Shown here piece after piece: positions 17,029 through 26,738 of a stretch of 50,572 bases of DNA. The notes below the pieces were generated by a model, which was given only the letters and a program-made list of their open reading frames with translations, was not told the DNA's origin and did not search any database. The first letter of the stretch is position 1. The number at the start of each line of letters is the position of its first letter. Made by a program: the position numbers and the translations under genes. The stretch covers positions 1 to 50,572 of the forward strand of contig JAFCGN010000004.1 of NCBI GenBank assembly GCA_017608045.1, written 5' to 3'. The DNA is from Candidatus Parvarchaeota archaeon (lineage in GTDB: Archaea; Nanobdellota; Nanobdellia; JAFCGN01).

Positions 17029-17685
17029 TTAATAAAATTTATTTTTTATTTCTTTTTTTCTTTCCATAATTTTGAAAAGCAACCAAAAGAATATTGTGCA
17101 TAATAATGAAATTGAGACAATTAAAATCCAAGAATGAATATGCTCTGGAAATATGAAAAAAAGCAATAGTCCAACAAGAATGATGAAGCCAATATAACTT
17201 ATAAGAAATTTTTCCTTGTCTAAAGTAATTTTATTTATATTTTTAATAAAATCATATGTTTGTTTTCCAAAAGTTTTTTTTATTCTTGAACCGAATATTG
17301 TTAAAAAATCTTTTAAAAAAAGAAACATTAAAAAAAAGCTTGAAAGAAAGATTACAGCATCATATGTTATATTTGACCAATAATCCTCCCATGTTATTAA
17401 AAGCCCAATCTCATCAGCAAATAAACCAAGTCCAATCCCATAAAACATAGAACCCAAGTATGTTAAATTTTTATTAGAATAGTTTAATCCGAGAAAACCG
17501 CCAAACAAAATTAAAATTGTTCCAAAGAAAAAATGGTGAATGTGATAGTCTTTAAAAGTTATCCAAGTTGTAGGGTTAAAAATAACAAAAATCCTTGCAA
17601 TCATGAATGAAAAGATAAAGCAAGAGAACATAATAAATGGCACTGCCTTATTTCTTCTTTTAACATAATCAAGAATTTTTGCCAT
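17029..17685 (-). CDS. Hypothetical multi-pass membrane protein
   Basis: Several hydrophobic segments; DYHIHHFFFGTILILFGGFLGL. Confidence 0.65.
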   Translation of the reverse strand: MAKILDYVKRRNKAVPFIMFSCFIFSFMIARIFVIFNPTTWITFKDYHIHHFFFGTILILFGGFLGLNYSNKNLTYLGSMFYGIGLGLFADEIGLLITWEDYWSNITYDAVIFLSSFFLMFLFLKDFLTIFGSRIKKTFGKQTYDFIKNINKITLDKEKFLISYIGFIILVGLLLFFIFPEHIHSWILIVSISLLCTIFFWLLFKIMERKKEIKNKFY

Positions 17686-17768
17686 GATGTGTAAAAAAAC
17701 TTACTTTAATTTAAATCTTAAGATTTTAAAGAAATAAACTTAAAAATTAAAAACTTATTTGATATGAA

Positions 17769-17833
17769 GGTAAATGATGAAGCTCATGAGCACTGAGATT
17801 ATCCAATGAAGAAAAGATGGGCGGACAGATACC
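17769..17833 (+). ncRNA. Candidate archaeal C/D-box sRNA with two guides
   Basis: Intergenic. Terminal stem GGTA (17769-17772)/TACC (17830-17833); C box ATGATGA 17774-17780; 12-nt guide; D' CTGA 17793-17796; C'-like ATGAAGA 17806-17812; ~13-nt guide; D-like CAGA 17826-17829 (non-canonical). Confidence 0.55.
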
Positions 17834-17885: not shown

Positions 17886-18632
17886 ATGAAACCCGAACTC
17901 CAACCACACCTTATGATATCAAAGTCAAGTCCTTTTGTTTTGCTTCCTGGAGATCCTGGAAGAGTGTTGCGTATAAAAAAGTTTTTGAAATCTTCAAAAC
18001 AAATTGCATTTAATCGAGAATATAGAACAATTATTGGTTTTTACAAAGGTGTTGAAGTGACAGTAACTTCTACAGGAATTGGTGGTCCAAGTTTAGCTAT
18101 TGCACTTCATGAACTTGTTAAATGCGGAGGCAAATACTTTATTAGGGTTGGAAGTTGCGGTTCTCTTCAAAATTATTTAAAAATAGGTGATTTAATCATA
18201 CCTAACAAAGTTTACAAAGATGATGGAACATCAAAACTTTTTTCAAAAACGAAGTTTGTTAAACCATCAAAACGTGTTTATGATGCGCTAATTCAAAGTG
18301 CTAAAAAAACAAGCAATATAAGATTTTTTACAGGAATAAATCGTTCTCATGATTGTTTTTATTTGAAGAATCAGAAAAAAATCAGTGAAGAATTTCATAA
18401 AAAAGGTTTTTTAAGTGAAGAAATGGAAGCAGCAACTTTGTTTTCAATGAGCAAATATCTTGGTGTTGAAGCAGGTGCTGTTCTTAATTGTGTTGATACA
18501 TTTTCTCAAAAACCTGAAGAAGGTATAAAAGAATATGCTTTGAAAAACAAGAAAGCAATGCTTGGTGAAAAAAATGAAATCATGGTCTCTTTAGAGGCAT
18601 TAAAAAAAATATCGAGAGGTGAAAAAAAATAG
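17886..18632 (+). CDS. udp: Uridine phosphorylase / nucleoside phosphorylase family
   Basis: VLLPGDPGRVLRIKKFL, TVTSTGIGGPSLAIALHEL, IRVGSCGSLQ, SEEMEAATLFSMS. Confidence 0.88.
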   Translation: MKPELQPHLMISKSSPFVLLPGDPGRVLRIKKFLKSSKQIAFNREYRTIIGFYKGVEVTVTSTGIGGPSLAIALHELVKCGGKYFIRVGSCGSLQNYLKIGDLIIPNKVYKDDGTSKLFSKTKFVKPSKRVYDALIQSAKKTSNIRFFTGINRSHDCFYLKNQKKISEEFHKKGFLSEEMEAATLFSMSKYLGVEAGAVLNCVDTFSQKPEEGIKEYALKNKKAMLGEKNEIMVSLEALKKISRGEKK

Positions 18633-26641: not shown

Positions 26642-26738
26642 GCCTGGGTGGCGGAGTGGTTTAACGCGTCGGTCTCGAATAATTCTTGAGACAACCGATG
26701 CCCGAAAGGGCGCACAGGTTCGAATCCTGTCCCAGGCG
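26642..26738 (+). tRNA. tRNA-Ser(CGA) with a 13-nt intron after position 37
   Basis: Acceptor GCCTGGG/CCCAGGC, discriminator G, anticodon stem TCGGT/ACCGA, long variable arm GCCCGAAAGGGC, T arm ACAGG-TTCGAAT-CCTGT; anticodon CGA 26676-26678; intron about 26680-26692. Confidence 0.88.

Follow-up and report, generated by a model that had tools for sequence, protein, structure and literature searches.

What kind of RNA, if any, is encoded by the 65-nt intergenic element at positions 17769–17833 (+) of this archaeal contig, and which molecules would its two guide-like segments address? The initial annotation read it from the letters alone as a box C/D sRNA whose downstream guide targets 16S rRNA C1402. 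Our analysis, which draws on sequence, conservation, guide–target complementarity, covariation of the terminal stem, and the presence of fibrillarin and Nop5, makes it highly probable that the element is a double-guide archaeal box C/D sRNA, with 16S C1402 and C34 of elongator pre-tRNA-Met as its predicted targets. Throughout, the window is the whole stretch analysed (50,572 nt, contig C2 of a 775-kb assembly in 20 contigs that is 92.5 per cent complete; G000), and G001 is a sister genome of the same genus.

Layout of the locus and its conservation in the genus

The element lies between a membrane-protein ORF (17029–17685, −) and a phosphorylase-family ORF (17886–18632, +) and reads GGTA-A-ATGATGA-AGCTCATGAGCA-CTGA-GATTATCCA-ATGAAGA-AAAGATGGGCGGA-CAGA-TACC. 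The box layout first proposed for it was correct to the base. Its parts are as follows:

17740–17747, +: TATA-like TTAAAAAT, candidate promoter element from sequence only, about 21 nt 5' of the stem
17769–17772, +: 5' arm of the terminal stem, GGTA, pairing with 17830–17833
17774–17780, +: C box ATGATGA, an exact RUGAUGA match, kept in G001, G006, and Methanobacteriota
17781–17792, +: D' guide AGCTCATGAGCA, predicted by complementarity to target C34 of pre-tRNA-Met at the exon–intron junction
17793–17796, +: D' box CTGA, identical to the consensus CUGA
17797–17805, +: D'–C' spacer, unconserved, the main internal divergence between G000 and G001
17806–17812, +: C' box ATGAAGA (ATGAGGA in G001 and G016; mostly GTGATGA or ATGATGA in Methanobacteriota)
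17813–17825, +: D guide AAAGATGGGCGGA, predicted by complementarity and N+5 to target 16S C1402 (E. coli numbering)
17826–17829, +: D box variant CAGA, the same in G001, CTGA in the other aligned homologues
17830–17833, +: 3' arm of the terminal stem, TACC, complement of 17769–17772

The guides measure 12 nt (D') and 13 nt (D), each directly 5' of its own box, and the internal D'/C' pair (CTGA, 9 nt, ATGAAGA) is also present in homologues. Checked against the box C/D consensus, the C box is exact, and the D box is CAGA in both G000 and G001. The upstream TATA-like TTAAAAAT noticed in the initial annotation is there, but it sits in A+T-rich surroundings and is not strictly conserved in G001; as a promoter element of the sRNA it is only plausible, and weakly so. 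Separately, a 10-nt palindrome, GCTCATGAGC (window 17782–17791), makes up the core of the D' guide, where GCUCAU is able to base-pair intramolecularly with AUGGGC of the D guide.

The homologue in G001 is 87 per cent identical to the locus (58/67 columns), whereas the 80-nt flanks of the two are 58 and 53 per cent identical, close to the 56 per cent of shuffled sequence. Unchanged between them are the C box, D' guide, D' box, the stretch AGATGGGCGGACAGATACC, D box, and GGTA/TACC stem, as is the D-guide core AGATGGGCGGA; the differences fall in the spacer and around C'. An alignment of relatives had been suggested as a check on the annotation, and in G001 it shows three boxes (C, D', D), the two guides, and the stem retained, with the flanks at background. 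Such conservation of boxes and guides amid divergent flanks supports the C/D sRNA reading.

The D guide, its CAGA box, and 16S C1402

The claimed complementarity of the D guide to 16S rRNA is borne out in the organism's own gene: the 16S sequence contains CCGCCCGTC, which gives the best rRNA match of the guide (9 bp, one of them G–U), and the fifth nucleotide 5' of CAGA pairs with the C1402 equivalent, in keeping with the N+5 rule. Because 333 of 1000 random guides equalled the best D-guide score against 16S and 23S, this match is non-significant alone. The same C1402 register is found in G001, G002, G006, G015, G016, G025, G074, Methanobacteriota, and one Thermoplasmata MAG, and it is kept in relatives with a canonical CUGA D box, as expected if the annotated target is right.

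Pattern searches fix this register by construction, and the sequence model R1, the source of G016 and G074, includes the D guide. One homologue was found without the D guide: G006, from another family, was located by BLAST via the C/D' half only. It reads GATGATGA-AGCTCATGAGCA-ATGA, followed by GACGGGCGAT-CTGA; its D box is canonical, and N+5 again falls on C1402. Both guides and a CTGA D box are also carried by G016 (another family) and by the order-mate G002, which ends at a contig edge, and the C1402 guide occurs with different D' guides in G015, G025, G074, and the Thermoplasmata MAG (L198). Conserved boxes and guides, divergent flanks, and a constant N+5 register thus uphold both the reading as a C/D sRNA and C1402 as its target. 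That the D guide directs 2'-O-methylation at the C1402 equivalent is a supported prediction.

The module has a wide but uneven distribution. Methanobacteriaceae carry the full sRNA as GCC-ATGATGA-ACCCTATGAGCT-CTGA-GTGATGA-ATGATGGGCGAG-CTGA-GGC, and the pattern with both guides occurs in at least dozens of named genomes, with Methanobrevibacter, Methanosphaera, and other Methanobacteriaceae among the matches listed. Of the 154 Methanobacteriota genomes, 146 contain a C'-guide-D module, and a reversed control pattern had no match there. In the organism's own phylum, the C'-C1402 module was found by a strict pattern in 6 of 380 genomes and is therefore patchy.

Several sets of matches were rejected. 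Bacterial matches to the both-guide pattern lack the boxes and are due to chance, as are most of those BLAST matches of the sRNA in 190 relatives that were weaker than about E 0.001, which lay in coding DNA. Real matches to R1 in 383 genomes were the top few only. The D guide of G032, GATGGGCTGG, was ruled out as a C1402 guide by an inserted base, and in G030, G010, and G048 the tRNA guide is present with no recognisable C1402 guide. Within the D guide, at 17816–17823, nearly all homologues have GAUGGGCG, which forms a G–U wobble with G1405 despite an available G–C pair; GACGGGCG is found at this stretch only in G006 and G002 (alignment A2).

The weak point named in the initial annotation was the CAGA D box, which is indeed non-consensus but is a milder problem than feared. 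It could mean that the D side guides methylation poorly, that the genus mainly methylates tRNA-Met C34, and that the role of the D guide at the 3' end of 16S rRNA is limited to binding or chaperoning. CAGA is found in both genus members against CTGA in the remaining aligned homologues, and chaperone roles of archaeal C/D sRNA guides have been discussed (PMC4644070). We consider this alternative unlikely, as the D-guide core and box are fully conserved between two species whose spacer and flanks are not. Moreover, CAGA changes the U of CUGA and retains the GA needed for the tandem sheared G–A pairs of the k-turn. The concern is further reduced because CAGA is kept in the genus and is also the D' box of likely tRNA-Leu(CAA) C34 guides, members of the same class, in G048 and G032. 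By these comparisons CAGA looks like a tolerated D-box variant.

Guided methylation at C1402 would be dispensable if a protein did the work. Bacteria methylate this ribose with RsmI (m4Cm1402), a protein-only enzyme acting on the same residue and the same ribose as those addressed by the D guide. An RsmI-like protein is a very improbable substitute here: TIGR00096 had no match at E ≤ 10 in G000, G001, or G002, and matched only below its curated cut-off in two Methanobacteriota genomes. Ribose methylation of the equivalent residue has been reported as Cm1376 in P. abyssi, Cm1639 in yeast, and Cm1703 in human (PMC7005279), the P. abyssi residue being numbered Cm1369 elsewhere (PMC11542601).

The D' guide and C34 of pre-tRNA-Met

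The initial annotation is supported in its reading of a C/D sRNA with a C1402 guide but was incomplete, as it left the D' guide unassigned. A DNA search of the assembly itself found no elongator tRNA-Met gene among its 20 contigs (92.5 per cent complete), and the target sequence was taken from G001. There, tRNA-Met(CAT) has a 34-nt intron, and its junction reads GGCTCATGAG. The D' guide forms ten contiguous pairs with this gene, nine Watson–Crick and one G–U. The paired stretch starts at G31, crosses the anticodon, and extends into the intron, with C34 at N+5. Against 34 tRNA genes, 32 of 1000 random guides (3.2 per cent) did as well.

A second lineage shows the same arrangement with other letters. 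Intron-containing tRNA-Met in two Methanobacteriota genomes reads GGCTCATAGGGT, and the Methanobacteriota D' guide ACCCTATGAGCT pairs over 12 nt (one G–U) with its own pre-tRNA-Met, again with C34 at N+5. The guide follows the pre-tRNA-Met junction, being CUCAUGAG in G001 and CUCAUAGGGU in Methanobacteriota. Because it changes with the intron sequence between lineages, this is the strongest evidence for tRNA-Met C34 as the probable target.

Grosjean et al. 2008 (PMC2584109) report that the guide for Cm34 in intron-containing tRNA-Met is an sRNA encoded apart from the tRNA; because part of its pairing lies in the intron, the methyl group must be added before splicing. They mention 18 candidates. 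The hallmarks of the sR49 type, a guide lying partly on the tRNA-Met intron and encoded outside the tRNA gene, are found in G001 and in the two Methanobacteriota genomes. Like Pyrococcus sR49 and the other Cm34 guides, the locus is non-intronic and would address C34 across the exon–intron boundary of pre-tRNA-Met; a possible difference lies in its second guide, which is predicted to address 16S C1402.

Other tRNA genes and guides were seen along the way. The window holds an intron-containing tRNA-Ser(CGA) at 26642–26738 (+), a gene that ARAGORN misses when run without its intron option, and contig C17 of the same genome (L056:1867-2079) has a tRNA-Arg(CCT) with a predicted 137-nt intron that includes a tandem duplication of a unit about 48 nt long. 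Loci with a C box, the guide AGGTCTTGAGC, and CAGA or ATGA as the D' box occur in G048 (L114), G010 (L117), and G032 (L144); these loci in related families are likely tRNA-Leu(CAA) C34 guides. The tRNA-Leu(CAA) intron of G186 (C6:16502-16538; L013 / L115) contains CTCTTGAGCA-CTGA and ATGATGA, which may be a C/D guide encoded in the intron and directed at C34 of the same tRNA, or no more than the splicing (BHB) helix.

The element as a probable C/D sRNA and its relation to known systems

The C/D geometry of the locus is above chance. A strict scan of both strands of the 50.6-kb window (exact C box, CTGA D' box, C' box with at most one mismatch, NNGA D box, and 4-bp terminal stem) gave one match, which is this locus, and none in 60 dinucleotide-preserving shuffles. 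In an alignment of 25 homologues, 89.6 per cent of the pairs in the terminal stem, which is five pairs long, are standard, and in 31 cells both partners have changed; its covariation score was matched by none of 500 shuffles and in no shifted register. The single-strand fold is uninformative, with an unexceptional energy (z −0.81). At the gathering score, Rfam has no family for the locus or its Methanobrevibacter homologue, and the Rfam matches to the locus, all sub-threshold, are C/D snoRNAs. Scans for sigma-70 promoters and bacterial terminators were empty and, given bacterial models and an archaeal host, uninformative.

Two further rivals, a fortuitous resemblance to a C/D sRNA in A+T-rich intergenic sequence and a leader belonging to the phosphorylase gene downstream, would accommodate the unremarkable fold energy and an rRNA complementarity that is non-significant by itself, but the first is scarcely credible in view of the conservation, stem covariation, and wide distribution, and the second equally so because G001 keeps the upstream gene and has a different downstream gene, and an unrelated gene adjoins the sRNA in G006.

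For the double-guide sRNA, the protein partners presupposed by the initial annotation are both encoded in the genome, with fibrillarin and Nop5 genes adjacent to each other (L001). The C/D motif would fold into a k-turn and the C'/D' motif into a k-loop, with L7Ae, Nop5, and fibrillarin as the proteins that bind them. The D guide would then direct 2'-O-methylation of the 16S residue equivalent to E. coli C1402, and the D' guide, spanning the exon–intron junction of elongator pre-tRNA-Met, would direct that of the wobble C34 before splicing. We infer from the sequence that the locus is transcribed, that the RNA assembles into an RNP, and that both residues are methylated, as well as the timing of these methylations with respect to splicing.

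With archaeal box C/D sRNAs (fibrillarin–Nop5–L7Ae) the locus shares box order, spacing, 12–13 nt guides, the N+5 rule, a terminal stem, and the 65-nt size; it departs from them in having CAGA where they have a CUGA D box, and no Rfam family covers it. The eukaryotic guides of the C1402-equivalent residue, which we take to be SNORD43 (U43) for 18S Cm1703 and snR70 for yeast Cm1639, are likewise C/D guides, though they are snoRNAs and the locus is an archaeal sRNA. We know of no tRNA-Met guide on either. The equivalence of the eukaryotic and E. coli residues is documented (PMC7005279, PMC11542601). Both marks are of already known archaeal kinds, which the locus extends; a description of one sRNA with both guides was not found in the article texts searched.

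A more speculative reading, which we offer tentatively and would not favor, is that one sRNA has been kept as a unit in DPANN and Methanobacteriota, archaeal groups that lie far apart, where it makes the two 2'-O-methyl marks that come together in the P site when AUG is decoded (Cm34 in tRNA-Met, Cm1402 in 16S rRNA), and that the two marks are functionally coupled through their common guide RNA.

The C1402 ribose methyl occurs in bacteria, where a protein enzyme makes it, in eukaryotes, where a snoRNA guides it, and in archaea (Pyrococcus). The locus described here is a candidate archaeal guide for this widely common mark, present in nearly all Methanobacteriota genomes searched, and since Methanobacteriota include culturable species, a direct test is possible.
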